Positions 30,951 through 46,107 of a stretch of 64,000 nt of DNA are shown one piece after another. The DNA comes from Eudoraea adriatica DSM 19308 (lineage in GTDB: Bacteria > Bacteroidota > Bacteroidia > Flavobacteriales > Flavobacteriaceae): assembly GCF_000382125.1 (NCBI RefSeq), contig NZ_KB907549.1, positions 1 to 64,000 on the forward strand, written 5' to 3'. The position numbers were made by a program, and so were the translations under genes. Every line of letters begins with the position of its first letter. The stretch's first letter is position 1. The notes under the pieces were generated by a model. The model saw nothing but the letters and a program-made list of their open reading frames with translations, was not told where the DNA came from and made no database searches.

Positions 30951-31036
30951 AGTGTATTATTACCATTAGCATCAGTTTTTCTTAATACCCGCACTGCACT
31001 GACTGCCAAGTTATTCCAATCTTTAATTCTACAAAA

Positions 31037-31048
31037 TGATGTGCATCA
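31037..31048. promoter_or_regulatory. FNR/CRP-like box 1 of the 31.0-kb divergent region (LigD side)
   Basis: TGAT-GTGC-ATCA. On the minus strand the sequence 23 bp away (31006-31013) reads TAACTTGG, matching five of six fixed positions of TAnnTTTG. This places the box near -41 of the LigD-type operon promoter, the class II activator position. Confidence 0.6.
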
Positions 31049-31068
31049 GTTGTGGAAATTTTCAACAA

Positions 31069-31080
31069 TGATCAAAATCA
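31069..31080. promoter_or_regulatory. FNR/CRP-like box 2 of the 31.0-kb divergent region (sigma-like gene side)
   Basis: TGAT-CAAA-ATCA, 53 bp upstream of the sigma-like gene start. The -7 element on the plus strand is less clear: TAAGATTG (31096-31103) is 15 bp away and CATTTTTA (31104-31111) is 23 bp away. Confidence 0.5.
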
Positions 31081-31132
31081 TTTGATCGGTCGTGATAAGA
31101 TTGCATTTTTACATAACATAAAAAGTTTTATT

Positions 31133-31921
31133 ATGGAAAATTCAACTGCTTATTACGAAAACAAGAAAGCATTCCATCTATTTGTGGCTCGAACCTATAC
31201 CGATCTGGTACAACTAAAAAGAGAAGGCAAAAAGGAGGAGTTTAATTCACTGCTATTAAAGGTTATGCCCGAGGTGAAACTTTACATCAAAAGGAAATTA
31301 AATACAGCTATGTCCAAACATCTGATTCCCAGGGGAAAATACAAGCCGGAGGATATTACAGATCAGCTTTATTTAGAGGCATTTGACCACTTTGATGAAA
31401 TAAAGCGCAAAAAAGACTTCCACCCCTGGTTGTTCAAAAAAGCAGATTCACTGCTGGATGAGATTATGGCTGATGAGGAGTTCGATACACTATTTTTGGA
31501 CAATATTGATTCCTATGCTAAAGCAGAATGGGATAGTATGGCCGAAAAATTTAGCGTGGATGGAGATGGCGACTATGTTATGATGGAAGAACTGGATGAC
31601 ATCTCCTATAGAAAACATGATTATATTTTAAAAAACATTTTCCTGGAGGACAGCGGCAGGGATATGATGGCAAAATTGGATCGGGATCTTGGCAAAGAGA
31701 ACATTCGTAAGCATACCGAAATGGTACTGCATCATTTACCAGCCGATATGCGTGCTGTTTTTGAACTTTTTACCCAACACCAATTTGAGCTGGACGAAAT
31801 CTCTAAAATACTCAATAAAGATATCCTGGAAATTGAACAACTCCTGGAAGATGCGCGAAGCAGCCTTGAAACCACTTTTTATAAAAGATTTGTAAATGGA
31901 TTTAAAAAAGAAACAACATGA
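31133..31921 (+). CDS. Sigma-70-like protein (putative, atypical)
   Basis: About 262 residues from ATG 31133 (MENSTAYYENKKAFHLF); a GTG at 31052 would lie next to the regulatory boxes and is unlikely. KYKPEDITDQLYLEAFDHFDEIK with FHPWLFKKADSLLDEIM resembles sigma region 2, and HTEMVLHHLPADMRAVFELFTQHQFELDEISKILNKDILEIEQLLEDARSSL resembles the sigma region 4 helix-turn-helix. An acidic insert (MMEELDDISYRKHD) separates them. If this reading is right it is a diverged alternative sigma factor of the stress island. It overlaps the next gene by four bases (ATGA). Alternative: a non-sigma regulator of unknown function. Confidence 0.5.
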   Translation: MENSTAYYENKKAFHLFVARTYTDLVQLKREGKKEEFNSLLLKVMPEVKLYIKRKLNTAMSKHLIPRGKYKPEDITDQLYLEAFDHFDEIKRKKDFHPWLFKKADSLLDEIMADEEFDTLFLDNIDSYAKAEWDSMAEKFSVDGDGDYVMMEELDDISYRKHDYILKNIFLEDSGRDMMAKLDRDLGKENIRKHTEMVLHHLPADMRAVFELFTQHQFELDEISKILNKDILEIEQLLEDARSSLETTFYKRFVNGFKKETT

Positions 31922-32325
31922 AAACTACAAATGCTAACCCCAAAACGGATGTGTTATTAGGTACGGGATTGATTGATTTGCATATAGAAAGCAAGGAATG
32001 GCTTGAAACAATAGCCTTTTGGAAAGATGAGATTCGTTTTTTTGCAAACCTTCTTCAGAAAAAAGAAACTAAAGAGAATACAAAATCTCAATTGGGCAGA
32101 ATACTTAAAAGCCTGGACAAAATTCACATGGAAATATTTGATTATATGTCGGAAGACATAATGAGACATGAAAGTATTTTGGCACGGTTGCAGAAAGGAC
32201 AAGAGGGTTTGGCCGACATCGATTATAGAAATCAACACAACAAGGTTAAAAGCACCATGGCTAAATTTGAAGTTGAATTCAGGGGTTTCAAAAGGTTAGT
32301 CTTTGAATATGCTAAGGGACTATAG
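31918..32325 (+). CDS. Small helical protein, paralogue of 32509-32895
   Basis: A 135-residue, largely helical protein without signal peptide. The segment LIDLHIESKEWLETIAFWKDEIRFFANLL resembles LHFEHQQWWSELAFWEDELRSFNIRL in the convergent gene at 32509-32895, with the same spacing of Trp and acidic residues. The C-terminal half (HNKVKSTMAKFEVEFRGFKRLVFEYAKGL) is also similar to that of its neighbour. It overlaps the sigma-like gene by ATGA, so translation is coupled. One possibility is a regulator or partner of the sigma-like protein; no family is recognised. Confidence 0.7.
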   Translation: MKTTNANPKTDVLLGTGLIDLHIESKEWLETIAFWKDEIRFFANLLQKKETKENTKSQLGRILKSLDKIHMEIFDYMSEDIMRHESILARLQKGQEGLADIDYRNQHNKVKSTMAKFEVEFRGFKRLVFEYAKGL

Positions 32326-32368
32326 TAAAAAAATACTTCAATAATTGATTGGAAATGGAATTTAAATT

Positions 32369-32404
32369 CTGAGCATGATTTCATAATAATGAGGTCATGC
32401 TCAG
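32369..32404. terminator. Inverted repeat between convergent genes
   Basis: CTGAGCATGA (32369-32378) pairs perfectly with TCATGCTCAG (32395-32404) around a 16-base loop. It lies between the convergent stops of the two paralogous small genes and may end transcription in both directions, although no T-run is attached. Confidence 0.5.
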
Positions 32405-32508
32405 TTCGCTTAAAGAATACAGGATTAAAACAAGCTATGATACTCCAGGTAAAGGTCTCCCCAATCCAACTTAAAAATACCCGGCCAAAAGAAATTACCC
32501 CTGGCAAA

Positions 32509-32895
32509 CTACATATATTTGGTTAGAAAACGGAAGAACTCCTTTTTAAGGTCTGCATAAATCTCTCGTTGGGTTTCCATTTTATTCCGAAATTCCAGAT
32601 GCCTTTTAACCAGTACGGTATCCAGTGCATCTTGCCCCTGTTGGCTTTGGCCGGCTATTCTGGTTTCATGTACCTCTATAGCCTCTTTTAGTTTGTCAAT
32701 AATGCCGTTGTGCAGGATAAATTCATTTTGGTAATGCTCTAGTTGTGCAAGTACCTCCTTATCAGTCCAGCGGGTTACCAACTCGCTCAACCTGATGTTA
32801 AAAGATCTCAGTTCATCCTCCCAAAAGGCGAGTTCGGACCACCATTGCTGGTGTTCAAAATGCAGGTCCGCGTTGTAAATTACTTCTTTTTCCAT
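32509..32895 (-). CDS. Small helical protein, paralogue of 31918-32325
   Basis: A 128-residue protein predicted to be almost entirely helical. LHFEHQQWWSELAFWEDELRSFNIRL near the N-terminus and KRHLEFRNKMETQREIYADLKKEFFRFL near the C-terminus match the other small protein encoded convergently. The family is not recognised. It is the last gene of the FtsH operon (25 bp after ftsH), so both the FtsH and the sigma-like transcription units of the island contain one paralogue each. That points to a role in the stress response of this island. Confidence 0.7.
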   Translation of the reverse strand: MEKEVIYNADLHFEHQQWWSELAFWEDELRSFNIRLSELVTRWTDKEVLAQLEHYQNEFILHNGIIDKLKEAIEVHETRIAGQSQQGQDALDTVLVKRHLEFRNKMETQREIYADLKKEFFRFLTKYM

Positions 32896-32920
32896 GATAT
32901 TTTGTTTTAATTTTCACTTA

Positions 32921-34870
32921 TTAATCTCCTTCTAATTCAGCAATAGCCCTTTTTCCCATGATCTTTTCCAAATCATCTTTTTCAACTATTTCTTTTTTCA
33001 ATAAAAGTTGTGCAAGTTCTTCCAGTTCTGACCTATGTTCTAAAAGGAGCTTTTTTGTTCGGTTATAACAACCGTGCACCAAATCCTGCACCTCTGTATC
33101 TATTAACTTTGCCATATTCTCACTATAGGGTTTCCCAAACATACGTTCATTCTGACCTGTGGAGTCGTAATAACTAATGGGGCCAATTTCCTTATCCAAG
33201 CCATAATAAGCGACCATGGTATACGCCTGTTTAGTCACTTTTTCCAGATCATCCAATGCCCCGGATGAAACCTCATTAAAAATAATTTCCTCTGCCGCGC
33301 GCCCGCCAAGAGATGCACAAATCTGGTCTACAAACTGTGCCCTTGTTACAATTTGCCTTTCTTCAGGCAGATACCAGGCAGAACCCAGGGATTTTCCCCG
33401 GGGAATAATAGATACTTTGACCAGTGAATCCACATTTTTTAAATGCCAGCTTGCAACGGCATGCCCGGCCTCATGATGCGCAACGATTTCCTTTTCCTTA
33501 GCAGAAATTATTTTGCTCTTTCTCTCCAGTCCTCCAACAACCCGATCCCTGGCCTCCATAAAATCTTCCTGCTCAACCTCCTCCTTCTTTTTACGTGCAG
33601 CGATGAGTGCAGCTTCATTGCATATATTGGCTATATCAGCTCCCGAAAATCCCGGACTCAATGCACCCAGCTCCTGAACGTTTACATTTTTAGATAATTT
33701 AAGGTCCCGTATATGAACCCCGAAAATTTCAATTCGTTCTTGTTTATTGGGCAGTTCAAGGTAGATATGCCGATCAAATCTTCCGGGCCTTAATAAGGCC
33801 TTGTCCAAAACATCCGGGCGATTAGTGGCAGCTAAAACAATTACTCCTGTATTAGGGCCAAAACCATCCAGCTCTGTCAGCAATTGATTTAGGGTACTTT
33901 CCCTTTCATCATTGGCTTGAAATGCATTTATCTTTCCGCGCGAACGGCCCACAGCATCAATCTCATCGATAAAAATAATACTAGGTGCTTTTTCTTTGGC
34001 ACGCCTGAAAAGATCCCGAACCCTTGATGCGCCTACTCCAACAAACATTTCTACAAACTCCGAACCAGACATGGAAAAGAAAGGAACCCCGGCTTCACCC
34101 GCTACTGCCTTGGCCATTAAGGTTTTCCCTGTTCCCGGTGGGCCAACAAGCATAACTCCTTTAGGGATTTTAGCTCCTAATTTAGTGTAATGTTCCGGGT
34201 GTTTGAGGAAATCTACCACTTCGATAACCTCAGCCTTAGCTTCTTTTAAGCCTGCAATGTCATCGAAAGATACTTTGCTTTTATGCCCTTTCTCCGTTAA
34301 TTGGGGAGATGATTTTCCAAAATTGAACAAGGGGTTCGATGTGCCTCCGGTTCGCATTCTTCGAAGTGTAAATCCCCAGAACAAGACCAAAAAAAGAAGA
34401 GGCAATAACCACGGTACAATATTCCAAAAATCTATACGGTTCTGATAACTTACTTCTACTTTGTCCTCAGTAGAAAAGTCTTGCTGTGCCATGGCCATTT
34501 TGTTTTCAAAACTTTCCACTGAACCAATCTGGATCGCATAGTGTGGTCCTGTTTTATAATTAATGGCCTTATCATTAATCCATTGGTGTTTTGAATCTGT
34601 AAGACTTTCTTCTTTAATATATATTTCTGCTACCTCCTTATTGACAACCACTATTTTCGCAACCTCATGTTGAGAAAGCATCGAAGTCTCAAACTCCTGC
34701 CAGGTTATTTCTTTGGTAACAGCAACAGGGTTTGAAAAAATATAAAACAATAGAAGTGTCGTAAAAAGCAAAATATAGCCCAAATTAATGTTATATCCTC
34801 CCCCGGGCTGTTTTGGCTTGCCTTTTTTGGCCGAATCAGTATTTGTTTTTTTATCGGACGATTGTTTCAT
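32921..34870 (-). CDS. ftsH: ATP-dependent zinc metalloprotease FtsH
   Basis: A 649-residue membrane protease that degrades misfolded membrane and regulatory proteins. Two transmembrane helices flank a periplasmic domain ([16 protein letters not shown] near 32-47; [17 protein letters not shown] near 150). Walker A GPPGTGKT is at residues 243-250, Walker [11 protein letters not shown] follows, then the second region of homology with NRPDVLD and the zinc site HEAGH (466-470). The start ([13 protein letters not shown]) has a cytoplasmic tail. Its promoter (TATTTTTA at 34936-34943, minus) has the single FNR-like box 34967-34978 exactly 23 bp upstream. This may be a stress-dedicated FtsH copy; the housekeeping one need not be in the window. 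Confidence 0.95.
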
Positions 34871-34966
34871 AATTTTTATTCAGGCCGGATGAACATATAC
34901 CAATTGAAATAGCATAATTGGCAACTCACCGGATATAAAAATATATCTATATAACCATCCCTGAAA

Positions 34967-34978
34967 TGATGTAGGTCA
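34967..34978. promoter_or_regulatory. FNR/CRP-like box shared by the ftsH and degP divergent promoters
   Basis: TGAT-GTAG-GTCA. One palindrome serves both directions: 23 bp to the right is TTATTTTG (35002-35009, plus) and 23 bp to the left is TATTTTTA (34936-34943, minus), each matching the -7 consensus TAnnTTTG at five of six fixed positions. Confidence 0.65.
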
Positions 34979-35027
34979 TTACAAACTATCGGGACATGCT
35001 ATTATTTTGTAATTAAAATTATAAGGT

Positions 35028-35414
35028 ATGACCAGGTTTAAAAAATTTCGTTATTTAATGGTCCTGACTTCTTTTATCATCATTGGAAGCTGTGGGCCTG
35101 TTGTAATGACCACAGGAATCAGTGAACCTCCACCCCCATGGTTCTATCCTAACCGGGTGGAAGTAGTTCGTTATGTCTATTTCCCGGAATACTTTTTTTA
35201 CTATGACCTATCGGCACGGACCTATATCTATTTGGATGGGGGAGTCTGGGTTAGGCGAAACTTCTTGCCACCGCGATATCGCAATTTAGATCTGCGGCGT
35301 TCAAGGTATGAACGTGTAAAAGGATATCGTAACGATGATATCCAAAGGTATCATGAGGAACATAATGCCAATAGGGGCAGAAGCAATAGAAATACACCCG
35401 GAAGAAGAAGTTGA
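35028..35414 (+). CDS. Small lipoprotein of unknown function
   Basis: A 128-residue exported lipoprotein (lipobox IIGSCGPV). The mature part is unusually rich in Tyr, Arg and Pro, with PPPPWFYPNRVEVVRYVYFPEYFFYYDLSARTYIYLDGGVWVRRNFLPPRYRNL and an Arg-rich, Asn-rich tail. Such sequences occur in Bacteroidota envelope proteins that bind the cell wall or outer membrane, but the function is unknown. The -7 promoter element starts only 26 bp before the start codon. The gene is cotranscribed with the DegP-like protease 26 bp downstream. Confidence 0.7.
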   Translation: MTRFKKFRYLMVLTSFIIIGSCGPVVMTTGISEPPPPWFYPNRVEVVRYVYFPEYFFYYDLSARTYIYLDGGVWVRRNFLPPRYRNLDLRRSRYERVKGYRNDDIQRYHEEHNANRGRSNRNTPGRRS

Positions 35415-35440
35415 TATAATAACATTATAAACTCAAAACC

Positions 35441-36943
35441 ATGAAAAAACTAAAAAGAAGTATCATAATACTATTGATAGGGCTGGTAACTATTTCACTG
35501 GCATCATGTAAGGATATAAATGGTTTAACCGAAAGCAGCGATATGGATCTGCCGCAATTTTATGCAGAAAGTAGCGCTGACCGGAACTACCAAAATGACC
35601 AGGGGGAAGTCCAGAGAGGTCCGGTTGATTTTACAGAAACCGCAAAAAAGGTATTGGATGCTGTGGTACATATCAGATCAACCCAGACCGCTTCAATCGA
35701 CAATACAGATATACTGCCCCCTGACTTACCCGATCTTTTTCGTGATTTTTTCGGAGATCGTTTTCAAATGCCGGAGAATATGCCCCGGCAACCGATGTAC
35801 AGTTCGGGTTCTGGTGTAATTATTGACAAAAAAGGACATATCGTAACCAATAACCACGTTATACAAAATGCCACGGAGCTGGAAGTTACACTTCACAATA
35901 ATGAAACCTATAAGGCAACTGTAATTGGTGCAGACCCAACCACCGATCTGGCCTTACTGCAGATTACGGGCACGGATTTAAAAGCCTTATCTTTTGTAGA
36001 TTCAGATAAGGTGGAAATCGGGGAATGGGTATTGGCCGTTGGAAACCCCTATAGCCTTTATTCTACGGTTACTGCGGGCATTGTGAGTGCCAAAGCACGT
36101 AACATCAATATCAACCCTGCGAAACTTGCCGTAGAGAGCTTTATACAGACAGATGCAGCCATTAATCCCGGTAACAGCGGTGGTGCCCTTGTAGACCTTG
36201 ACGGGAATATCGTGGGTATCAACACGGCTATTGCCAGCAGAACCGGAAGCTATACCGGATACGGATTTGCCATACCCAGTAATATAGTTACAAAAGTAAT
36301 AGCTGATCTATTGAAATATGGAAGTGTGCAGCGCGGAATCCTGGGCGTTACCATTGCCACGATGACCGGCAATTTAGCAAAAGAAAAAAATATTGATTTC
36401 ATTAAAGGGGTCTGGATTGAAAGTGTCAACGAAGACAGTGCTGCTGAAAAGGCAGGTATTAAGGCCGGAGATATAGTTGTTAAGGTAGACGGAATAGATG
36501 TAGCTACTTCGCCAAGATTACAGGAAATCATAGCCCGCCACAGGCCAGGAGACAAAATCTCTGTAATTGTGAATCGAAAGGGACAAGAAAGAGAATATCA
36601 GGTTACCCTGGAAAACGTAAAGGGCTCTACGGATATTACAAAAAAAGAAAATGTGGAAATGCTGAATTATCTGGGAGCTGATTTTGAAACACTGGATAAG
36701 GAAACTGCCAAAAAATTGAATTTGGATGGTGGTGTAAGAGTAGTTAATCTTTACCCCGGGTTGCTACGCCAAAAAACCCAAATACGTCCCGGATATATCA
36801 TTACACATGTAGATGGTAAAAAAGTGACTAATGTAAAAGAACTGGTGGCGATTCTGGAAAACAAAAAAGGTGGCGTAATGTTGGAAGGAGTATACGAGGA
36901 TATGCCCGGGAAACAATATTATGCTTTCGGGTTAGATTCCTGA
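35441..36943 (+). CDS. degP: DegP/HtrA-like S1C serine protease (lipoprotein)
   Basis: A 500-residue periplasmic chaperone-protease. The N-terminal lipobox (ISLASCKD, Cys23) suggests membrane anchoring. The trypsin-like catalytic triad is H139 (VTNNHVI), D169 (DPTTDLALL) and S246 (NPGNSGGAL). Two PDZ domains follow at about 300-395 (QRGILGVTIA..., AEKAGIKAGDIVVKVDG) and 400-495 (LNYLGADFE..., IRPGYIITHVDG). The family degrades or refolds damaged envelope proteins. It forms an operon with the small lipoprotein under the FNR-like box, complementing FtsH, which is transcribed away from it. Confidence 0.95.
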   Translation: MKKLKRSIIILLIGLVTISLASCKDINGLTESSDMDLPQFYAESSADRNYQNDQGEVQRGPVDFTETAKKVLDAVVHIRSTQTASIDNTDILPPDLPDLFRDFFGDRFQMPENMPRQPMYSSGSGVIIDKKGHIVTNNHVIQNATELEVTLHNNETYKATVIGADPTTDLALLQITGTDLKALSFVDSDKVEIGEWVLAVGNPYSLYSTVTAGIVSAKARNININPAKLAVESFIQTDAAINPGNSGGALVDLDGNIVGINTAIASRTGSYTGYGFAIPSNIVTKVIADLLKYGSVQRGILGVTIATMTGNLAKEKNIDFIKGVWIESVNEDSAAEKAGIKAGDIVVKVDGIDVATSPRLQEIIARHRPGDKISVIVNRKGQEREYQVTLENVKGSTDITKKENVEMLNYLGADFETLDKETAKKLNLDGGVRVVNLYPGLLRQKTQIRPGYIITHVDGKKVTNVKELVAILENKKGGVMLEGVYEDMPGKQYYAFGLDS

Positions 36944-37011
36944 AATCAGAACTCAGTGAATGTTCCTGGTCAGCCTAGAATTGACCAGACCACTTTATTT
37001 CATAAGCCAGC

Positions 37012-37050
37012 AAAAAAGTTAGCATTGGCAAATGCCATGCTAACTTTTTT
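37012..37050. terminator. Bidirectional terminator between degP and ppsA
   Basis: AAAAAAGTTAGCAT...ATGCTAACTTTTTT, with an inner TGGCA/TGCCA stem and a one-base bulge. A-run on one side, T-run on the other, so it works in both directions between the convergent genes. Confidence 0.9.
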
Positions 37051-37117
37051 ATGGAGATAAGCGTTAGATTGGCTATTTAACCAATTGTTGCAAAAATTTT
37101 GCCTAAAGTAAATTCCT

Positions 37118-39520
37118 TCAATTGCTGTCTGCCGTCTGTCCTAAACTCATAATACTCTGCTCTGCCCTATTAATGTTTTCAATGCCTTGTATAAGGGCAT
37201 CCGGATTGAAGGATATACTGTTTATGCCTTCTTTGACCAAAAACCTTGCAAATTCCGGGAAGTCACTTGGTGCCTGACCGCACAATCCAATCTTTGTATT
37301 GGTTTTTCGAGCAGATGCTATTGCCATGGAAATCATCTTTTTGGCAGCAGGGTCGTTTTCATCAAACAGTTTGCCCATAAGTTCTGAATCTCGATCGATT
37401 CCCAAGGTCAGCTGGGTCAGATCGTTGGATCCTATGGAGAACCCGTCAAAAATCCCGGCAAATTCCTCTGCCAAAATAACATTACTGGGAATCTCTACCA
37501 TGGTATAAATTTCAAGACCATTCTTACCTCTTTTCAACCCGTATTCCTCCATGATGGCCACCACCTTTTTGCCTTCCTCCAATGTCCTGCAAAAAGGAAC
37601 CATTACCTTAAGGTTGTCGAGTCCCATGGTCTCCCGTACTTTTTTGATAGCCGCACATTCCAGGGCAAAACCTTCTTTATAGAGCTCACTGTAATATCTG
37701 GATGCCCCCCTAAATCCCAGCATGGGGTTTTCTTCTCTTGGCTCGAAAGCCTTACCACCTATGAGGTTGGCGTATTCGTTGGTTTTAAAATCGCTCAGCC
37801 TAACTATGACCTCTTTAGGGTAAAAGGCAGCAGCTATAGTGGCAATGCCTTGTGAGAGTTGATCTATGAAATAGTCCTGCTTGTTTTCGTAGCCTACTGT
37901 AAGTTTTTCTATTTGTTCTATTTCCGTGGTATTTTGTACCTCATCAAACTTAACCAATGCCATGGGGTGTACCTTTACGGAATGCGTTATTATAAATTCC
38001 ATTCGCAATAAGCCTACCCCATCGTTTGGGTAAAATGACAACTGAAATGCATTTTCGGGATCGGCCAGTATCATTTTAGCTTCCGTATGTGGCATCCGTA
38101 TGTTGGAAAAGTCTATCTCTTGCTCACTAAAAGAAAGTTTACCCTGATATATATAACCTGTTTTACCCTGTGAACAGGATAAGGTAATAGTATCACTTTC
38201 CTTCAGAACTGTCGTAGCTCTAAGGCATCCTACGATTGCAGGAACTCCCAGTTCCCTTGCTACAATGGCAGCGTGGCTAGTTCTTCCTCCTTTATTGGTA
38301 ATTATGCCGCCAATCTGTTTTAGCAAGGGGTCCCAATCCGGGGTAATGGTATCGGTAACAAAAATATCATCCTTAGAAAGGTTTTTAGCTTCCCCTGGAG
38401 AATTTAACAGACGGGCTGTCCCAACTTTAATTTTGGAACCCACAGCATTTCCCGAAGCCAATACTTTACCTTTTTCCTCTAGTTTATATTGAATATACAG
38501 GTTCTTGTTCTTACTAAAATGCACGGTTTCCGGACGGGCCTGAATGATATATAGTTTATTGGTAAGTCCATCCTTTGCCCATTCAATATCCATAGGTTTC
38601 CGGTAATGCTTTTCAATGGCGGAAGCCCAATGTGCCAGGGTAATTATTTCTTCATCAGATAAAACAAATTGGCGCTGCCTGGGTAAGGGTGTATCTATAT
38701 TTATTGTTGGGTTATTCTCACTGGACTTTGAATAGATCATCGTTAATTTCTTATCCCCCATTTTTTTCTGGAGTATAGGAAATTTGCCCTCTTCAAGGAT
38801 AGGTTTGAATATATAATATTCATCAGGGTTCACAGCCCCCTGAACAATGTTCTCTCCCAATCCCCAAACACCTGATAGCAAGATGACGTTCTCAAAACCA
38901 GATTCAGGCTCAATCGTAAAGCCTACCCCCGAACAACCTTTGTCTGCACGGACCATATTTTGAATCCCGACAGAAAGGGCAACCTCTGCATGTTTAAAAC
39001 CTTTTTCATCCCGATATTTTATAGCCCTGTTTGTATAAAGTGAAGCAAAACACTTTTTAACGGCCCCGAGCAATGCACTTTCCCCTTCAATATTGAGAAA
39101 TGTATCGTGCTGGCCCGCAAAACTTGCTTCGGGCAGATCTTCTGCCGTGGCACTGCTTCGCACAGCAACAGCACAATTTTCATCCTCTGATAACCCCCGA
39201 TAGGCTTCCATAACTTTTTGTGAAAGATCTGAGGACAACTTTCCTCCCAATATCAGATTACGGGCCTTCTCCCCTATTTGATTTAAATTTGCATAGGTTT
39301 GGGTATCTAACTGGGTTAATATAGTTTGTAAAGGATTCCGCAGTGAATTTTCATCCAAAAAATCCCAAAATGCATGGGAAGTTATAGCAAAACCATTTGG
39401 GACATTTACACCCTGAGAAGTGAGTTCATTATACATTTCTCCCAAAGAGGCATTTTTACCACCTACCAAAGAAACATCCTGTATGCCTATTTCACTAAAA
39501 TACTTAAGGTATTTTTTCAT
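37118..39520 (-). CDS. ppsA: Phosphoenolpyruvate synthase
   Basis: An 800-residue enzyme converting pyruvate, ATP and water to PEP, AMP and phosphate. The N-terminal ATP-binding domain has VGGKNASLGEM and CAVAVRSSATAEDLPEASFAGQ; the swivelling domain carries the phosphorylated His416 in GGRTSHAAIVARELGVPA; the C-terminal PEP-binding TIM barrel contains MLGFRGASRYY, FSIGSNDLTQLTLGID and the Cys of GLCGQAPSD. It is the second gene of an operon with the PNPOx-like protein, controlled by a box-plus-perfect -7 promoter at 40117-40159. Its PEP would feed gluconeogenesis or anaerobic energy balance. Confidence 0.95.
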   Translation of the reverse strand: MKKYLKYFSEIGIQDVSLVGGKNASLGEMYNELTSQGVNVPNGFAITSHAFWDFLDENSLRNPLQTILTQLDTQTYANLNQIGEKARNLILGGKLSSDLSQKVMEAYRGLSEDENCAVAVRSSATAEDLPEASFAGQHDTFLNIEGESALLGAVKKCFASLYTNRAIKYRDEKGFKHAEVALSVGIQNMVRADKGCSGVGFTIEPESGFENVILLSGVWGLGENIVQGAVNPDEYYIFKPILEEGKFPILQKKMGDKKLTMIYSKSSENNPTINIDTPLPRQRQFVLSDEEIITLAHWASAIEKHYRKPMDIEWAKDGLTNKLYIIQARPETVHFSKNKNLYIQYKLEEKGKVLASGNAVGSKIKVGTARLLNSPGEAKNLSKDDIFVTDTITPDWDPLLKQIGGIITNKGGRTSHAAIVARELGVPAIVGCLRATTVLKESDTITLSCSQGKTGYIYQGKLSFSEQEIDFSNIRMPHTEAKMILADPENAFQLSFYPNDGVGLLRMEFIITHSVKVHPMALVKFDEVQNTTEIEQIEKLTVGYENKQDYFIDQLSQGIATIAAAFYPKEVIVRLSDFKTNEYANLIGGKAFEPREENPMLGFRGASRYYSELYKEGFALECAAIKKVRETMGLDNLKVMVPFCRTLEEGKKVVAIMEEYGLKRGKNGLEIYTMVEIPSNVILAEEFAGIFDGFSIGSNDLTQLTLGIDRDSELMGKLFDENDPAAKKMISMAIASARKTNTKIGLCGQAPSDFPEFARFLVKEGINSISFNPDALIQGIENINRAEQSIMSLGQTADSN

Positions 39521-39602
39521 TGTCTTTATTTTTAAATGAAATATATAATTCTATTAATTCCGCCTAAGCAATCAAACTAAAGTTTTAACCAAAAACTACA
39601 TC

Positions 39603-40088
39603 CTAATTTTTGGATTCCCTGAACTTTCCTGTAATTTCCTGAATCCTTATCCTGTATACTATAGGGATACCTTGCCCATATATTTTGCTGGAAAATTCAC
39701 TTATAAATTCCGGCTGTGACCCCTCTTTTTGTGCAACTAATTTTTTTACTTTTTGAGCAAACTCATGTAAAAGGTACTTTGCATCAATTCCCTGCAGTTC
39801 TTCGAATGTACCTTGAACATGTACAGATCGCCAGTCGTTCACAGATGTTATTTCTTCTACTTCAAGGGAAACCAGATCATTTTTTCGCATTGCATCAATC
39901 TTATGGCCTTCTGAAGAATATCCTGTAATTGTATTAGTTTTTGGATTATAAGAATATGTAATAGGCAATATATAAGGCTCCTGATGTGATATAAATGCCA
40001 AATGCCCTATATAGTTATTGTTCAATAACTCAATACATTCCTTTATCTCCAAATTTTTAATCATGATCTCATTTTTGACAGTAGTCAT
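39603..40088 (-). CDS. Pyridoxamine 5'-phosphate oxidase-like flavin-binding protein
   Basis: A 161-residue split-barrel protein. It begins MTTVKNEIMIKNLEIKECIELLNNNYIGHLAFI, followed by PYILPITYSYNPKTNTITGYSSEGHKIDAMRKNDLVSLEVEEITSVNDWRSVHVQGTFEEL, the pattern of the PNPOx-like flavin- or F420/heme-binding superfamily. Members in stress regulons are thought to reduce quinones or act on nitro/NO stress compounds; the substrate is not known here. Its promoter TAAATTTG (40117-40124, minus) is a perfect -7 consensus 23 bp from an FNR-like box at 40148-40159. PEP synthase lies 82 bp downstream. Confidence 0.8.
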   Translation of the reverse strand: MTTVKNEIMIKNLEIKECIELLNNNYIGHLAFISHQEPYILPITYSYNPKTNTITGYSSEGHKIDAMRKNDLVSLEVEEITSVNDWRSVHVQGTFEELQGIDAKYLLHEFAQKVKKLVAQKEGSQPEFISEFSSKIYGQGIPIVYRIRIQEITGKFRESKN

Positions 40089-40116
40089 CTTTACGAAATA
40101 GTGATCGGATCAACAA

Positions 40117-40124
40117 CAAATTTA
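40117..40124 (-). promoter_or_regulatory. -7 element of the PNPOx-ppsA operon
   Basis: TAAATTTG on the minus strand, a perfect match to TAnnTTTG, exactly 23 bp from the FNR-like box 40148-40159 and about 29 bp from the start codon. No -33 TTTG, as expected for an activator-dependent promoter. A further near-palindrome TGATCGGATCA lies at 40102-40112, around the presumed transcript start. Confidence 0.65.
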
Positions 40125-40147
40125 AATTGAAGGGTACACTAACGGAA

Positions 40148-40159
40148 TGATGCAAATCA
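40148..40159. promoter_or_regulatory. FNR/CRP-like box of the PNPOx-ppsA operon
   Basis: TGAT-GCAA-ATCA. It is 23 bp from the -7 element at 40117-40124 on the minus strand and 31 bp from the second box at 40191-40202. Confidence 0.65.
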
Positions 40160-40190
40160 GTTGGAAGAATATTTAAGCGTAAAACCGGTA

Positions 40191-40202
40191 TGATTCAAAT
40201 CA
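40191..40202. promoter_or_regulatory. FNR/CRP-like box of the dodecin gene
   Basis: TGAT-TCAA-ATCA, identical in its halves to the E. coli FNR half-site spacing (TTGAT-N4-ATCAA). The -7 element TACTTTTG begins exactly 23 bp downstream at 40226. Confidence 0.65.
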
Positions 40203-40225
40203 TTGTGAAGCGAATATGAAAGAAA

Positions 40226-40233
40226 TACTTTTG
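40226..40233 (+). promoter_or_regulatory. -7 element of the dodecin promoter
   Basis: TACTTTTG, a perfect TAnnTTTG match. The leader up to the dodecin start codon is about 130 bases, long for this island. Confidence 0.6.
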
Positions 40234-40368
40234 GCTAAATGTTCCCCAAAACAAGAGCCGGTGCCATGATGGATATATGCAAATGAAAATGACAATTTAG
40301 TCCGGGAGAACAATATCAGTATCAGTTAAAAGCCTTTTCAAATTTGTAAACAATTAAAATAAATAATT

Positions 40369-40572
40369 ATGTCAGTATTAAAAGTAATAGAAGTTTTAGG
40401 TAACTCTACGGAGAGTTTTGAGGATGCCGTGCAGAATGTTATCAATGAAGCATCAAAAACGGTCAAGAACATTAAGTCCGTTTATGTTCAGGACATGCAA
40501 GTAAGTGTAAAAGACAACAGTATTGCAGAATATCGCGTAAATACGAAGGTAACCTTTGGCATTATGGAATAA
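40369..40572 (+). CDS. Dodecin
   Basis: A 67-residue flavin-storage protein. The sequence MSVLKVIEVLGNSTESFEDAVQNVINEASKTVKNIKSVYVQDM and the final YRVNTKVTFGIME match the dodecin family, which forms dodecamers binding riboflavin, lumichrome or FMN. Dodecins buffer free flavins and protect against photo-oxidation. The gene has its own FNR-like box and perfect -7 element and ends in a good terminator. Confidence 0.9.
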   Translation: MSVLKVIEVLGNSTESFEDAVQNVINEASKTVKNIKSVYVQDMQVSVKDNSIAEYRVNTKVTFGIME

Positions 40573-40602
40573 AAGTTTCTTTTGTTTGATTTACCGAATA
40601 TG

Positions 40603-40640
40603 CCGTTCAATGTTTGATCTCTGCTTTGGACGGTTTTTTT
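40603..40640 (+). terminator. terminator after dodecin
   Basis: CCGTTCAA pairs with TTGGACGG (one G-U pair) across a short loop, followed by eight Ts. It lies about 30 bases after the dodecin stop. Confidence 0.85.
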
Positions 40641-40702
40641 TGTTCCCCTATTTTGTTATGCCTGTTAAAAATAATCTAATCGTATGTTAAATTCCATTGG
40701 AC

Positions 40703-40714
40703 TGATTTAGGTCA
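40703..40714. promoter_or_regulatory. FNR/CRP-like box of the methyltransferase-archease-rtcB operon
   Basis: TGAT-TTAG-GTCA, 47 bp upstream of the methyltransferase start. The -7 is weaker than at the other sites: TCATATTG begins 22 bp downstream. Confidence 0.5.
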
Positions 40715-40761
40715 TTTTGCATTCCCCTTTTTCTTGTCATATTGAGATAAAATAAAAAGAT

Positions 40762-41400
40762 ATGGCAATTATAGAAACATTTGACACCCATGTGTCTCAG
40801 TATGAAAAATGGTACGAGGACCATCCAGAGGTCTATCAATCCGAGGTTTTGGCCCTTCAGGAACAGTTTTTGGAACTGCCTCAAAACATTAGCGGTATAG
40901 AAGTTGGACTCGGTACCGGTAGATTTTCAAAACCATTAGGTATTAAGGAAGGTATAGAACCATCCAGGGAAATGGCTGCAAAAGCCATAAAAAGAGGTAT
41001 TGAAATTATGGAAGGAACTGCTGAACATTTGCCCTATGCCGCCTTACAATTTGATTTTGTTCTTTTTGTCACCGTCTGTTTCCTAACCGATATAAAAAGA
41101 GCCTTTCGTGAAGCACATAGGGTACTCAAGCCCAATGGGGCTATTATCATTGGCTTTTTGGATAAAGAACGTAGTGTGGCAGAAGAGTATATCGCTAAAA
41201 AGAACCGAAGTAATTTCTATGGAAATGCCAGTTTTTATACTGTGGATCGCCTGACCAAGGTACTTGAAAGTTCCGGATTCAAGGATTTGGTCTTCAATCA
41301 GACCCTATTTGGAAACATGGAAGAAATAGAGGAAGTTCAGGTCCCCAAAAAAGGGCATGGGGAAGGATCATTTGTTACGGTCAAAGCAATTAAAAAATGA
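40762..41400 (+). CDS. Class I SAM-dependent methyltransferase
   Basis: A 212-residue methyltransferase of the UbiE/type 11 group. Motif I is SGIEVGLGTGRFSKPLGI, followed by EGIEPSREMAAKAIKRGIEIMEGTAEHLPYAALQFDFVLFV and REAHRVLKPNGAIIIGFLDKERSVAEEY. Substrate unknown. The gene overlaps the archease gene by four bases (ATGA), and archease and RtcB directly follow, so the three are one translationally coupled operon. A role in RNA modification or repair is conceivable but inferred only from context. Confidence 0.85.
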   Translation: MAIIETFDTHVSQYEKWYEDHPEVYQSEVLALQEQFLELPQNISGIEVGLGTGRFSKPLGIKEGIEPSREMAAKAIKRGIEIMEGTAEHLPYAALQFDFVLFVTVCFLTDIKRAFREAHRVLKPNGAIIIGFLDKERSVAEEYIAKKNRSNFYGNASFYTVDRLTKVLESSGFKDLVFNQTLFGNMEEIEEVQVPKKGHGEGSFVTVKAIKK

Positions 41401-41807
41401 ATCAATATGTGAAACATACCGCCGATGTTGAAATTGAAGTCAGTGGCCGCACATTGCAGGAACTCTTTACGAAAAGTCTGGAGGCAATGTGCGATATACT
41501 GAAGGAAGGTGGCTGCAAGACCATTACTCATTTTGACTGTTCCCGGCGGGTTGTTGTTTCCGCTAATGACAGTACCGGTTTATTAATTGATTTTTTATCC
41601 GAAGTATTGTCCCTCTCCAATATCCAGAAATCTCTTTTTTGTAATGTTTATTTCTCAGAACTAACAGAAAACAAGTTAGAGGCGCAGTTATTTGGTATTT
41701 GGTTTGATCAGTTCGACAGGGAAATAAAAGGGGTTACCTACCATGAGGCCCGAGTTAAAAAGAATGATGACAATAACTGGGAAACGCATATAATCTTTGA
41801 TATCTAG
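41397..41807 (+). CDS. Archease
   Basis: A 136-residue archease: VKHTADVEIEVSGRTLQELFTKSLEAMCDILKEGG with the metal-binding Asp near the N-terminus, DSTGLLIDFLSEVLSLS in the middle, and KGVTYHEARVKKNDDNNWETHIIFDI at the end, where the C-terminal Asp binds metal. Archease accelerates guanylylation of RtcB and widens its NTP use. The start overlaps the methyltransferase stop, and RtcB begins at the base after its stop codon, so the stoichiometric pair is cotranslated. Confidence 0.92.
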   Translation: MNQYVKHTADVEIEVSGRTLQELFTKSLEAMCDILKEGGCKTITHFDCSRRVVVSANDSTGLLIDFLSEVLSLSNIQKSLFCNVYFSELTENKLEAQLFGIWFDQFDREIKGVTYHEARVKKNDDNNWETHIIFDI

Positions 41808-43256
41808 ATGAAGAAAGTTGAAAAAGCAGATATTCGGAAAATTGAGGATTACCTATGGGAAATTCCAAAGTCTTTTCGAAATAATATGCAAGTCCCTGCC
41901 TGGATCTTGGCCAACGAAATTCTATTGGACGATATCCTGGAAGACAGGTCTTTAAACCAACTGGTAAACGTGGCATGCCTTCCCGGTATCAAAAAAGCAT
42001 CGCTGGTTATGCCCGATGTTCATGAAGGATATGGTTTTCCAATAGGCGGTGTCGCCGCCACCTCCTATCCCAATGGCGCAATTTCGCCGGGGGGAATAGG
42101 TTATGATATTAATTGCGGAGTTCGCCTGCTGGCTTCTCAATTGCAGATAGAGGATATCAAAGATCAATTGGAGAATTTGGTGAATGAATTGAACAAGGAA
42201 ATACCTACAGGACTTGGCAAAGGTGGCAAAATCAGGCTTACCCAGGAGGAAATGGACAATGTACTGGCAATTGGTGCAGAATGGGCAGTGGAACACGGGT
42301 ATGGAACCCGGGAAGACCTTGAATATATTGAAAGTAAAGGGAAATTAGCGGATGCTGTACCAAAGGCAGTTTCTGCAATGGCGAAAAATCGCGGACACGA
42401 TCAGTTGGGTACCATTGGTTCGGGAAATCATTTTGTAGAAGTAAGTCATGTCACTGAAGTATTTGATGATAGTATTGCCAAAACCTACGGTTTAAAAAAA
42501 GGTCAGGTTACCGTAATGATTCACACAGGATCACGCGGACTGGGGCATCAGGTTGCTACAGATTATATTTGTTTAATGATGACTGCCATGGCTAAATACG
42601 GCATAAAAATGCCAGACCGTGAACTGGCTTGTGTTCCTTTCGATTCCCCGGAAGGACAAGAATATTTTAAAGCGATGTGTGCTGCAGCAAACTATGCATG
42701 GTGCAACCGACAGCTCATTACCTGGGAGGCCCGAAATGTGTGGGCAACTATTTTCGGCAGAGAAAACAGTTCTTTGAAACTGGTGTATGATGTGGCTCAC
42801 AATATTGCGAAAATTGAAACTCATAGTATTGACAGGGAACTTCAAAAAGTAATTGTACATAGAAAAGGAGCAACCCGTGCGTTTGGACCGGGTTTTGACG
42901 AATTGCCTCAAAACTATATAGAAACCGGCCAGCCTGTAATTATTCCCGGCAGCATGGGTACTTTCTCTTATGTGCTGGCAGGTACTTCCAAAAGTCATGA
43001 GCTTACTTTTGGGTCTTGTTGCCATGGCGCAGGAAGAAATTTGTCCAGGACTGCAGCCAAAAAAGTGGTTAATGCTCCAATTTTAAAAAAAGAACTTCAG
43101 GAGATAGGTATTTTGGTAGAGGGATCCTACCGGGGAATTGCCGAGGAAGCCCCAATTGCCTATAAGGATATAGAAGTTGTTGTGGATACGGTAACCTCCT
43201 CAGGAATAGCCAAAAAAGTGGCAAAACTCAGACCGGTAGCGGTTATTAAAGGCTAG
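41808..43256 (+). CDS. rtcB: RNA-splicing ligase RtcB
   Basis: A 482-residue Mn2+/GTP-dependent ligase joining 2',3'-cyclic phosphate (or 3'-phosphate) ends to 5'-OH RNA. Diagnostic segments: MPDVHEGYGFPIGGVAA, GGIGYDINCGVRLLAS with a metal-binding Cys, GSGNHFVEV, MIHTGSRGLGHQ, PGSMGTFSYVLAG, and FGSCCHGAGR with the guanylylated His. It follows archease directly. In bacteria RtcB-archease repairs tRNA or rRNA after stress-induced cleavage. Its stop overlaps the stop of the convergent phosphoribosyltransferase gene by three bases. Confidence 0.96.
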   Translation: MKKVEKADIRKIEDYLWEIPKSFRNNMQVPAWILANEILLDDILEDRSLNQLVNVACLPGIKKASLVMPDVHEGYGFPIGGVAATSYPNGAISPGGIGYDINCGVRLLASQLQIEDIKDQLENLVNELNKEIPTGLGKGGKIRLTQEEMDNVLAIGAEWAVEHGYGTREDLEYIESKGKLADAVPKAVSAMAKNRGHDQLGTIGSGNHFVEVSHVTEVFDDSIAKTYGLKKGQVTVMIHTGSRGLGHQVATDYICLMMTAMAKYGIKMPDRELACVPFDSPEGQEYFKAMCAAANYAWCNRQLITWEARNVWATIFGRENSSLKLVYDVAHNIAKIETHSIDRELQKVIVHRKGATRAFGPGFDELPQNYIETGQPVIIPGSMGTFSYVLAGTSKSHELTFGSCCHGAGRNLSRTAAKKVVNAPILKKELQEIGILVEGSYRGIAEEAPIAYKDIEVVVDTVTSSGIAKKVAKLRPVAVIKG

Positions 43257-43888
43257 TCATGTTTGAGCTCGTAGCTTTCCTGTAATAACTTTATAGCTTC
43301 TTCATCAGAGACCTGATTAAAAAATTCATAAAACTGACCAACAGCCATAAAATCCCTGGGGGTATACAAGCAAATTACATCATCAACAAAGGATGACGCT
43401 TCCAGACTCTTAATTGCCGAAGGAGGGGCCACGGGAATTGCTACTACTACTTTTTTTGGATGATGGGCCCTGACCATTTCTGCCGTTACACGAATTGTGT
43501 TTCCCGTTGCAATGCCATCATCAATGATTATCACAACCTTATCTTTTAATTCCTGAGGTTTGCGGGTTTTATAGTATTGCTCTTGTCTTTTTTTTAATTT
43601 TTCCCTGATACGAGTTGTTTCTTCGTCTATATAACGCTGATGGACTCCGGCAACGTCATTGAGAACAATTTGTTCCATGCTAACAGCACCAATGGCGTAC
43701 TCCCGGTTATATGGATGCCCTATTTTTTTAGACAAGGCAACATCCAGTGGGGTCTGCAAGGTTTTAGCCACTATTGCCCCCAAAGGTAACCCACCTCTTG
43801 GAATAGCTAAAACCACTACGTTTTGATCCTTATACGGCAGCAACTCATCTGCCAACTGTATCCCCGCATCAATTCTATCCCTGAACAT
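43253..43888 (-). CDS. Phosphoribosyltransferase family protein
   Basis: A 211-residue type I PRTase-fold protein from ATG 43888 (MFRDRIDAGIQLADELL); a start 12 codons upstream would overlap the previous gene. The PRPP loop is VVIIDDGIATGNTIRVTAEMVR; LAIPRGGLPLGAIVAKTLQTPLDVALSKKIGHPYNREYAIGAV precedes it, and VVAIPVAPPSAIKSLEA follows. This is the family that in mycobacteria is fused to erythromycin esterase or dienelactone hydrolase domains in hypoxia-induced proteins. Here it is adjacent to a dienelactone hydrolase-like gene, with the erythromycin esterase gene elsewhere in the island. Substrate unknown. Confidence 0.9.
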   Translation of the reverse strand: MFRDRIDAGIQLADELLPYKDQNVVVLAIPRGGLPLGAIVAKTLQTPLDVALSKKIGHPYNREYAIGAVSMEQIVLNDVAGVHQRYIDEETTRIREKLKKRQEQYYKTRKPQELKDKVVIIIDDGIATGNTIRVTAEMVRAHHPKKVVVAIPVAPPSAIKSLEASSFVDDVICLYTPRDFMAVGQFYEFFNQVSDEEAIKLLQESYELKHD

Positions 43889-43893
43889 TATAT

Positions 43894-44544
43894 CTAATTT
43901 ATGTTTATATGGTTTATAAACCATTTTGCGGATAAAGCCGCAACTTCCTCTAATTTACCCTCCTCTTCAAAAAGGTGTGTGGCGCTCGGGATGATTTCCA
44001 GTTTCCGTTCACACCTTAATTTATCATAGGCTTTTTTATTTAAGCCAATTACCACTTTGTCCCATCCGCCAACAATCAAGAGTGTGGGTGCTGTAACTTC
44101 ATGCAATTCGGACATGGCAAGATCCGGCCTCCCACCCCTGGAGACCACTGCCACAATTTCATCACCAAAGTAAGCGGCAGCCCCCAAGGCGGAAGCAGCT
44201 CCGGTACTGGCCCCAAAATAAGCTATTTGAAGTCCTTTGGTTTCCTCTTGCATTTTTATCCATTCTGTTACGGCAATCAACCTTCGGGTCAATAGGTCGA
44301 TGTTGAAACGGGTCTTGTAAAGCCTATCTTCTTCTTCGGTTAGGAGATCAAACAATAGGGTGCCCAGCCCCTCTTGCTGCAATACACTTGCTACATAGTT
44401 GTTTCTGGGACTCAACCTGCTGCTGCCGCTACCATGTGAGAAAAGCACCAATGCCCCGGCATTTTCCGGAACTGAAAGATTTCCTTTTAAAACGACTTTT
44501 CTTAGGGGAATTTCAATGGATCTATGTTCTTCTTTTAACAACAT
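43894..44544 (-). CDS. Dienelactone hydrolase family protein
   Basis: A 216-residue alpha/beta hydrolase starting at ATG 44544 (MLLKEEHRSIEIPLRK). Its ATG overlaps the TAA of the preceding gene in TAATG, so translation is coupled. Motifs: GALVLFSHGSGSSRLSPRNN (oxyanion and strand), AYFGASTGAASALGAAA with the nucleophile Ser in GASTGA, PTLLIVGGWDKVVIG with the acid, and IPSATHLFEE with His. These proteins hydrolyse enol-lactones, but members linked to PRTases have no defined substrate. The phosphoribosyltransferase gene follows after five bases. Confidence 0.88.
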   Translation of the reverse strand: MLLKEEHRSIEIPLRKVVLKGNLSVPENAGALVLFSHGSGSSRLSPRNNYVASVLQQEGLGTLLFDLLTEEEDRLYKTRFNIDLLTRRLIAVTEWIKMQEETKGLQIAYFGASTGAASALGAAAYFGDEIVAVVSRGGRPDLAMSELHEVTAPTLLIVGGWDKVVIGLNKKAYDKLRCERKLEIIPSATHLFEEEGKLEEVAALSAKWFINHININ

Positions 44545-45731
44545 TATTGCGCTATTTTTAGTTTGTTTTTTCGCTTTTGTAGGAAAACCAGTAAAAATAA
44601 TCCGTAACCAATGGCAATTACTGCTATAGATACTAAACTGCCCAAAAATGGTATCAGGGTTAGTAATCGAAGTACAATAGCCAGGCCTAATGAGACTAAT
44701 ATTAAAGTCCAGAAATTCCAATTTCGATTTTTATTTAAGTAATGGGCTAGTAACAAGGCTGCTATTAAATGTCCAAACAGAACACTGAAAATGTAAACCG
44801 ACAGAAGAAACAAGCCAACAGGAATGCCAATTATCAGAATAAATGTAAACAGAATGAGCAAAGGCATACCTAATAGATAGAGCAGTCCATAGATAAAACT
44901 TGTCAATATTTCTTTATCCAAATGGGTTACCGTATCTGCAAAAAAATCATTGAATGCCCAGTTCAGTAGGACTAAAATTAAAAATGCGGAAATGACATAA
45001 AAGACCCAGAGCCCGAATGCGACCAAACTAAAACCTTTCCAGACATTCCAGGAGAGATCCTCTTTATCCGGCATAAGGCCTTCATTGTAAGTGGCTTTGG
45101 CGTTTATCAAGGAGTTTTTAAAATTAATTTCAGGATCTTCCGACCAGTACTCCACATCACTTAGAAACCTGGCATCATTGCCAATTTCAAATTCCTCAGC
45201 TGCAATTTTTGAGGTCCCTGATATTTCACCATTAATTAAAATTGACCCGCCATACAGGTATGCCTCCTCCCTTACTTTGCCATTTAGTACTATTTCGCCG
45301 GAATAGGATTTAAGCATCCCTTTCACCTCTCCGTTCATTTCAATATTTCCAGAAAAATTGATCAGGTTACCATATATTACGGCATTTTCAGTGATCGTTA
45401 CTTCCCCGCCTGCCAAAATCACATCATCACCTACTTCTGAATCAATGATTAACCTGCCTCCGACGGCACGTATATCATCTTTTACCGGGCCTCTTACATT
45501 TATATCGGCCCCGACTGCCATAAGATCTTCCTGAAGACTGTCTATAATTGAAATTTTTCTTGCTGCCGCCACAACATCCCCATCAACTATCGCATTTATC
45601 CTTATAGTTTCACCGGCCAGATAAATATCATCTGTTTGATGTTCCGAGATCGATATTCTTTTATCAGCCGTATGTTGTCCCATAATAAATGTGGAAAACA
45701 ACAGCGTAAATAACCCCAGCATTTTTTTCAT
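44544..45731 (-). CDS. Polymer-forming (bactofilin-like) repeat protein with C-terminal membrane domain
   Basis: About 395 residues from ATG 45731 (MKKMLGLFTLLFSTFIMG), giving a signal peptide; an ATG at 45758 lies upstream of the inferred transcript start and is rejected. The mature N-terminal half is a repetitive beta-helix, with units such as GDVVAAARKISI, DDIRAVGGRLII, DDVILAGGEVTI and GKVREEAYLYGGSILING, as in bactofilin-like polymer-forming proteins. The C-terminal half has several transmembrane helices from about residue 240. It is the first gene of the minus-strand operon with hydrolase and phosphoribosyltransferase. Its box is 23 bp from TTCTTTTG. Function unknown. Confidence 0.8.
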   Translation of the reverse strand: MKKMLGLFTLLFSTFIMGQHTADKRISISEHQTDDIYLAGETIRINAIVDGDVVAAARKISIIDSLQEDLMAVGADINVRGPVKDDIRAVGGRLIIDSEVGDDVILAGGEVTITENAVIYGNLINFSGNIEMNGEVKGMLKSYSGEIVLNGKVREEAYLYGGSILINGEISGTSKIAAEEFEIGNDARFLSDVEYWSEDPEINFKNSLINAKATYNEGLMPDKEDLSWNVWKGFSLVAFGLWVFYVISAFLILVLLNWAFNDFFADTVTHLDKEILTSFIYGLLYLLGMPLLILFTFILIIGIPVGLFLLSVYIFSVLFGHLIAALLLAHYLNKNRNWNFWTLILVSLGLAIVLRLLTLIPFLGSLVSIAVIAIGYGLFLLVFLQKRKNKLKIAQ

Positions 45732-45786
45732 GGTAACTAGCTTTAGATAGTATTTCAAAAGAAAGGAAATACTTTCAGGATGGCAA

Positions 45787-45798
45787 TGATCAGGGTCA
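45787..45798. promoter_or_regulatory. FNR/CRP-like box of the bactofilin-hydrolase-PRTase operon
   Basis: TGAT-CAGG-GTCA. The -7 element TTCTTTTG (45756-45763, minus) is exactly 23 bp away. Confidence 0.6.
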
Positions 45799-45820
45799 TC
45801 CCTCCCGGTTGTTTAAAGCC

Positions 45821-45832
45821 TGACAAGGATCA
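45821..45832. promoter_or_regulatory. FNR/CRP-like box of the 45895 gene
   Basis: TGAC-AAGG-ATCA, which is TGAT-CCTT-GTCA on the other strand. The -7 element TAGATTTA (45856-45863, plus) is exactly 23 bp away. It is 34 bp from the box serving the opposite operon, a distance similar to those at 31.0 and 40.2 kb. Confidence 0.6.
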
Positions 45833-45894
45833 TTTGCAATAGATTTGGAATACCATAGATTTATTGAAGAACAAAATCTAACTACTTCAATACC

Positions 45895-46107
45895 ATGAAA
45901 GATCTGCAATCCGTTTTACAGGAAATTCTGGAAATCACGACTACTATAGAGACGGAATATCCGGAACTTTACAGGTTTTTAGAGGAAAGCCCTATGACCC
46001 TTCCTGCTGCTGACCATCCCGGGATAGATGAATACACATTAACTGAATATCTTAAGAGCTTAAAGGGGCTTCTACAACATCACAGGGAAACACGAAAGAA
46101 AAATTAA
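45895..46107 (+). CDS. Small hypothetical protein of the stress island
   Basis: A 70-residue cytoplasmic protein, acidic then basic at the end (MKDLQSVLQEILEITTTIETEYPELYRFLEESPMTLPAADHP ... HHRETRKKN). No family is recognised. It has its own promoter with an FNR-like box, and the coding region ends five bases before the convergent thioesterase gene. A regulatory or antitoxin-like role cannot be excluded but there is no evidence for one. Confidence 0.65.
   Translation: MKDLQSVLQEILEITTTIETEYPELYRFLEESPMTLPAADHPGIDEYTLTEYLKSLKGLLQHHRETRKKN

Follow-up and report, generated by a model that had tools for sequence, protein, structure and literature searches.

FNR-type boxes 23 bp from Bacteroidota -7 elements probably mark a low-oxygen and stress regulon in Eudoraea adriatica and other Flavobacteriaceae

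The first 64 kb of contig C4 (NZ_KB907549.1) of the 3.9 Mb genome of Eudoraea adriatica DSM 19308, hereafter the window, carry an island of genes for FtsH-type and trypsin-PDZ proteases, PEP synthase, a PNPOx-like protein, dodecin, archease and RtcB, and palindromes of the form TGAY-N4-RTCA lie among them. A preliminary description of this DNA had read eight such palindromes as FNR/CRP class II promoter boxes controlling the island. All eight were recovered in a palindrome scan of the window, which returned ten palindromes compared with a mean of 4.02 in shuffled sequence (about 2.5-fold, with ten reached in 1 of 100 shuffles), so that the chance expectation of about two per 64 kb given earlier was too low. 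Nine of the ten fall within 31037–45832. The two beyond the original eight, at 5201 and at 40076 (within the start of the PNPOx-like open reading frame, ORF), have no -7 element with fewer than two mismatches at a gap of 23 bp.

Six of the eight boxes have, at a distance of exactly 23 bp, octamers no more than one mismatch away from the -7 element TAnnTTTG, seven in all and in both orientations, as had been described: two are perfect (40148 reverse, 40191 forward) and five have one mismatch (31037 reverse, 34967 forward and reverse, 45787 reverse, 45821 forward). The frequency of octamers of this quality is 0.00975 per position and strand, so about 0.16 would be expected in 16 tests, versus the seven observed. 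By our reading of the ORF layout, the island has five promoter-bearing gaps, and a box is found in each, again as described.

From left to right (boxes are given without strand), the first box, TGATGTGCATCA at 31037–31048, has the one-mismatch octamer TAACTTGG at 31006–31013 on the minus strand, facing genes for a LigD-type polymerase and an erythromycin esterase-like protein (30950 downwards). Next to it, TGATCAAAATCA at 31069–31080 has the octamer CATTTTTA, with two mismatches, at gap 23 towards an ORF at 31133–31921 that has no Pfam match. The box TGATGTAGGTCA at 34967–34978 is two-sided, as had been noticed, with TATTTTTA at 34936–34943 (minus strand) towards the FtsH-type protease gene (32921–34870) and TTATTTTG at 35002–35009 (plus strand) towards an ORF at 35028 and the trypsin-PDZ protease gene (35441–36943). 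The two perfect octamers belong to the 40-kb pair: box 40148–40159, which reads TGATTTGCATCA on the reverse strand, has TAAATTTG at 40117–40124 (minus strand) towards the genes for the PNPOx-like protein and PEP synthase, and box TGATTCAAATCA at 40191–40202 has TACTTTTG at 40226–40233 (plus strand) towards the dodecin gene (40369–40572). The box TGATTTAGGTCA at 40703–40714 lies 5′ of methyltransferase, archease and RtcB genes, with CATATTGA at gap 23 showing three mismatches. At the right-hand end, TGATCAGGGTCA at 45787–45798 has the one-mismatch octamer TTCTTTTG at 45756–45763 (minus strand), facing a gene with a weak bactofilin match followed by hydrolase-like and phosphoribosyltransferase genes, and TGACAAGGATCA at 45821–45832 has TAGATTTA at 45856–45863 (plus strand) towards a 70-aa ORF (45895–46107).

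Comparison within the genus covered the 34967, 40-kb, 40703 and 45-kb boxes. The pattern of the 40-kb box pair with its octamers is kept in the relatives G009, G003 and G008, where the middle bases of the boxes vary and the spacers are partly similar. In G009 the two-sided 34967 box and its octamers are identical, and both 45-kb boxes are kept with their octamers, one of these boxes having changed letters that still fit the palindrome.

The preliminary description had itself named a genome-wide scan as its refutation test, which it withstands. We scanned the genome for a TGAY-N4-RTCA box, a spacer of N8 to N38 and then TAnnTTTG or TAnnTTTA, with the pattern read backwards as a control. A gap of 23 bp dominates, accounting for 25 of 37 TAnnTTTG matches (backward control, 2) and 28 of 41 TAnnTTTA matches (backward control, 11). 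Since both final-base classes peak at gap 23, the -7 element can end in either G or A, with roughly equal frequency; this accounts for two of the five 'mismatched' island octamers and corrects the originally proposed element in its last position. No ORF contains any of the 25 TTTG sites at gap 23, and each of them has a correctly oriented gene 9–248 bp downstream (for the 40191 site the 67-aa dodecin gene, 136 bp away and smaller than the size limit of our gene-finding script). By comparison, 5 of the 11 off-gap TTTG matches examined, out of 12, lie within ORFs. The box is followed by T in 22 and preceded by A or C in 24 of the 25 sites. If we take the T of the -7 'TA' to be at -12, from established sigma-factor knowledge, gap 23 places the box centre at -41.5, the class II FNR position, in accordance with the earlier estimate of about -41. 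TTTG was found 18–22 bp 5′ of the -7 element in none of the 25 sites, which agrees with the described lack of a -33 TTTG and is weak by itself, ordinary promoters having no part in the comparison. The arrangement occurs at about 50 places in the genome, and the predicted regulon is genome-wide, with the island as one part of it; regulation confined to the island is rejected on this spread.

The same arrangement recurs across the family. In 199 Flavobacteriaceae genomes of 198 genera, gap-23 matches number 1423 versus 29 for the backward pattern, with at least one match in 173 genomes. When all gaps were counted in a set of eight genomes, 159 matches were found versus 65 in the backward control; a recount in seven of the eight, from other genera (G150 left out), put 69 of 144 matches at gap 23, the commonest gap in each genome, with 7 at gap 24, 6 at gap 22 and 6 at gap 12. 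A stricter box gave the same peak within the genus, with 11 of 17 (G009) and 9 of 12 (G003) among the matches listed. Within the phylum the signal is concentrated in Flavobacteriaceae: 124 of 296 genomes have a match, including all 30 listed members of the family, and other groups have fewer or none.

Which proteins could read these boxes? The window holds no Crp/Fnr gene, as had been stated, and the six cNMP-binding genes of the genome all lie outside it. Two of the six proteins have an FNR-like recognition pattern, E-x-x-I-R. The first, a 231-aa FNR candidate, is encoded next to ccoS/fixS and a heavy-metal P-type ATPase gene. Its best NCBIfam family is Fnr, at 106 of 228 bits and thus under the curated cut-off, and among solved structures those closest to it in sequence are the Crp/Fnr protein of entry 2gau and FNR itself. 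Of 80 FNR loci, 76 were parsed. Residues C7, C10 and C109, the equivalents of Cys20, Cys23 and Cys122, are invariant in 14 aligned FNRs and present in 4 further genomes. The FNR gene has a box of its own 5′ of it, TGATATTTGTCA (L040:2904–2915), which lies 9 bp from the octamer TAATTTTG (C5:227403) and overlaps the promoter, and which could serve autorepression of fnr.

The second protein, which we call REC-FNR, has 352 aa with Response_reg, cNMP_binding and HTH_Crp_2 domains, and its gene lies directly downstream of a kinase gene. The seven best PDB sequence matches of the first PAS domain of the kinase are all FixL haem domains, with the His and Arg aligned; the proximal His is invariant in 21 of 21 kinase orthologues and the distal Arg is kept in 18 (N, K or S in the others). 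Around the kinase and REC-FNR genes (L041:82–7431) lie genes for universal stress proteins (USPs) and thioredoxin-like and ribosome hibernation factor-like proteins. Among 22 REC-FNR loci, picked from the REC-FNR match list rather than at random, the kinase gene lies upstream in 21 under an ORF filter that left no ORF in L209. A box lies within 120 bp downstream of the REC-FNR gene in 17 of the 21 loci, and the octamer at gap 23 of these boxes is TAnnTTTR in 17 of 17, although the scan had not pre-selected it. The next gene encodes a USP in 19 of 21 loci, as recognised from the N-terminal sequence and, for the copy of E. adriatica itself, by Pfam. The recognition pattern is E-S-C/A-I-R in FNR and, in motif-scan matches, E-S/T-x-I-R in 19 of 21 REC-FNR proteins. 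The cyclic AMP-dependent CRP, which reads a TGTGA box, has the pattern R-E-x-x-x-R, and neither FNR nor REC-FNR fits it.

The genes next to the sites point to respiration and stress. In E. adriatica they include hemN (whose product exceeds the NCBIfam cut-off), FixS/CcoS, cytochromes c, a POR-type ferredoxin oxidoreductase, USPs and Hsp20. Targets were then surveyed in four genomes with REC-FNR only (38 sites) and four with FNR only (41 sites; one G189 site, C96:185430, was left out of the survey), their families being checked on single examples. A gene lies within 400 bp at 76 of the 79 sites, and 3 sites were flagged as lying within an ORF. Judged by sequence similarity, all eight genomes have hemN among their targets, and ccoS is one in three of the four REC-FNR-only and all four FNR-only genomes. 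USP and MlaE targets each occur in three of the four REC-FNR-only genomes and in none of the FNR-only genomes, and PFL, Pta, copper nitrite reductase (nirK) and NapC/NirT-type cytochrome targets were seen in the FNR-only group alone.

Site number also follows the regulators. Gene calls in the 199 genomes gave FNR in 118 (E ≤ 1e-50) and REC-FNR in 86 (E ≤ 2e-30), the latter set including a truncated frame (G214) and members of 35–42% identity that are possible paralogues (G010, G046, G139, G166, G200). The median number of gap-23 sites is 13 in genomes with both (49 genomes), 5 with FNR only (69), 8 with REC-FNR only (37) and 0 with neither (44); in genomes of at least 2.5 Mb with neither, the median is 1 (13 genomes). 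In a quasi-Poisson regression with genome size and a Crp-like control type as covariates, the rate ratio is 1.79 for FNR (z 5.7) and 2.17 for REC-FNR (z 8.4).

Because of the target genes and this co-occurrence, we favour the FNR/CRP reading and consider it likely that the palindromes are class II FNR-type activator boxes in a Bacteroidota sigma context, serving a low-oxygen and stress regulon with two probable regulators. Either or both of these probably turn the promoters on when oxygen is low. Falling oxygen would activate either the FNR-like protein, which may sense it through a cluster, or the co-encoded kinase, whose FixL-like PAS domain is predicted to bind haem and which would then drive REC-FNR by phosphorylation. 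An FNR-type dimer would sit on the box about 41 bp 5′ of the start, replacing the -33 TTTG contact, and would recruit RNA polymerase, whose primary sigma factor would read TAnnTTTR exactly 23 bp from the box. With the same E-x-x-I-R helix pattern, both regulators probably read the same boxes. The class II FNR-type part of the preliminary description is thereby supported; its island-only scope gives way to a genome- and family-wide regulon, and control of the island by these boxes is what we infer. The low-oxygen reading fits the behaviour of a relative: according to passages of PMC9723704, limiting oxygen leads in F. psychrophilum to strong up-regulation of the cbb3 oxidase and likewise of enzymes for haem biosynthesis. 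The main text of the same article contains neither 'fnr' nor 'crp'.

Several observations weigh against this reading. Two of the eight island boxes, 31069 and 40703, are without a good -7 element at gap 23, and 2 of the 23 TTTA sites examined, out of 28, sit within ORFs. The outer T on the left or A on the right of the E. coli FNR site (TTGAT...ATCAA) occurs in none of the 25 TTTG sites. At the position of E. coli FNR Cys29 the candidate has Asn16, as do all 14 aligned proteins and the 4 further genomes, which makes an oxygen-sensing cluster less than certain, and the FixL-like His/Arg pattern is shared by PAS domains for which haem binding is not known. In the regression the rate ratio of the Crp-like control type is 1.96 (z 3.1), which is not negligible, and the co-occurrence statistics as a whole ignore relatedness and use E-value cut-offs chosen once the tables had been seen. 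Single genomes depart from the trend as well: G158 has 5 sites without either regulator at these cut-offs, and G121 has FNR and 1 site.

How the work is divided between the two regulators is a finer question. About as likely as not is a reading in which one code serves two interchangeable oxygen regulators, the three-Cys-plus-Asn FNR and a FixL-like haem kinase acting directly on REC-FNR, which would also drive the adjoining usp gene; genomes would carry either or both, site number would track carriage, and the FixL-FixJ-FixK cascade would be collapsed into a pair. A more tentative alternative is that REC-FNR alone controls the window island and the USP genes, with the cluster-type FNR limited to a respiratory core. 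The distribution of USP and MlaE targets, seen only in the REC-FNR-only genomes against hemN in all eight, speaks for this division, as do the larger regression coefficient of REC-FNR and, in E. adriatica, the gap-23 promoter after the REC-FNR gene and ahead of a USP gene. However, inspection by eye recognised no island gene among what the four REC-FNR-only genomes target, the two groups have nearly identical consensus boxes, and a box-bearing USP gene adjoins fnr too (L040).

Another Crp-family protein, of the L013 or L014 type, or a cyclic AMP-type CRP is unlikely to be the reader of these boxes. The genome does hold six cNMP-binding genes, the control coefficient is positive, and in E. adriatica (G000, C1:566481) and in G183 (C13:144074) an L013-type Crp gene is directly followed by a gap-23 site with TGACTnnAGTCA, perhaps that regulator's own target. 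Yet the L013 and L014 proteins have a different recognition pattern, R-x-V-V-S-R, and the genome comparison speaks against them as main reader: nine genomes that reach 2.5 Mb and contain the control type alone carry 0–5 sites (median 1), while nine with FNR or REC-FNR and without the control type have 1–14 (median 5). Chance, or the composition of AT-rich intergenic DNA, has in its favour that the palindrome alone is only about 2.5-fold enriched in the window, and is dismissed on the single-base gap specificity in two octamer classes, the 1423 versus 29 matches in the family and the 17 of 17 unselected octamers.

The favoured class II FNR-type reading has well-known counterparts. In E. coli, FNR-dependent class II promoters have the box centre at -41.5, and hemN and pfl are classical targets. 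The TGAT-N4-ATCA core and its distance to the sigma element are shared; the Flavobacteriaceae sites differ in having TAnnTTTR instead of TATAAT, outer bases that are mostly A or C before the core and T after it, and a regulator without a Cys29 equivalent. With the rhizobial FixL-FixJ-FixK cascade they share the FixL-like PAS domain of the kinase, an FNR/FixK-type DNA-binding part and microaerobic targets (cbb3 maturation, hemN), whereas the receiver and the FixK-like part are here fused in one protein, in place of a separate receiver-LuxR FixJ and a free FixK; the kinase would therefore act directly on the box-binding factor. Primary-sigma promoters of Bacteroidota (-33 TTTG, -7 TAnnTTTG) have the -7 element in common with these sites, in which the FNR box replaces the -33 TTTG and the last -7 base is G or A. 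A Crp/Fnr homologue of Flavobacteriales has been predicted to serve MalR-type carbon sensing, a different code (passages of PMC8510549).

Class II FNR promoters are already known; their sigma context here, the pair of candidate regulators and the kinase-linked FNR fusion are variants of which we found no description, the search for the box-23-TAnnTTTR arrangement or a kinase-driven REC-FNR in Bacteroidota having covered titles and abstract openings, with the subscription literature mostly outside it. Flavobacteriaceae are major members of communities in soil, the sea and fresh water (abstract of PMC9723704), and the literature searched held little on their low-oxygen control. An exact code of box, 23 bp and TAnnTTTR allows sequence-based regulon prediction across the family, and makes it possible to ask how an activator of the FNR type cooperates with the unusual sigma factor of Bacteroidota. 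The kinase-driven FNR fusion, if true, would provide an alternative more compact than the rhizobial cascade.

Some sites and genomes stand apart from the general pattern. Neither the 40703 box nor its octamer CATATTGA (40703–40745) is altered in G009, G003 and both G008 contigs; this site is either a weak promoter or one with a different sigma element. A gap-24 site in G000 (C7:133771) has near-identical sequence in G001, G002, G005 and G006 of the same genus, which suggests that a 24-bp spacing can also work. Beyond the family, G478, from another class of the phylum, is an outlier with 28 gap-23 matches. In the G008 draft, two different contigs (L198 and L199) each carry the 40-kb promoter pair, by duplication or mixed assembly.

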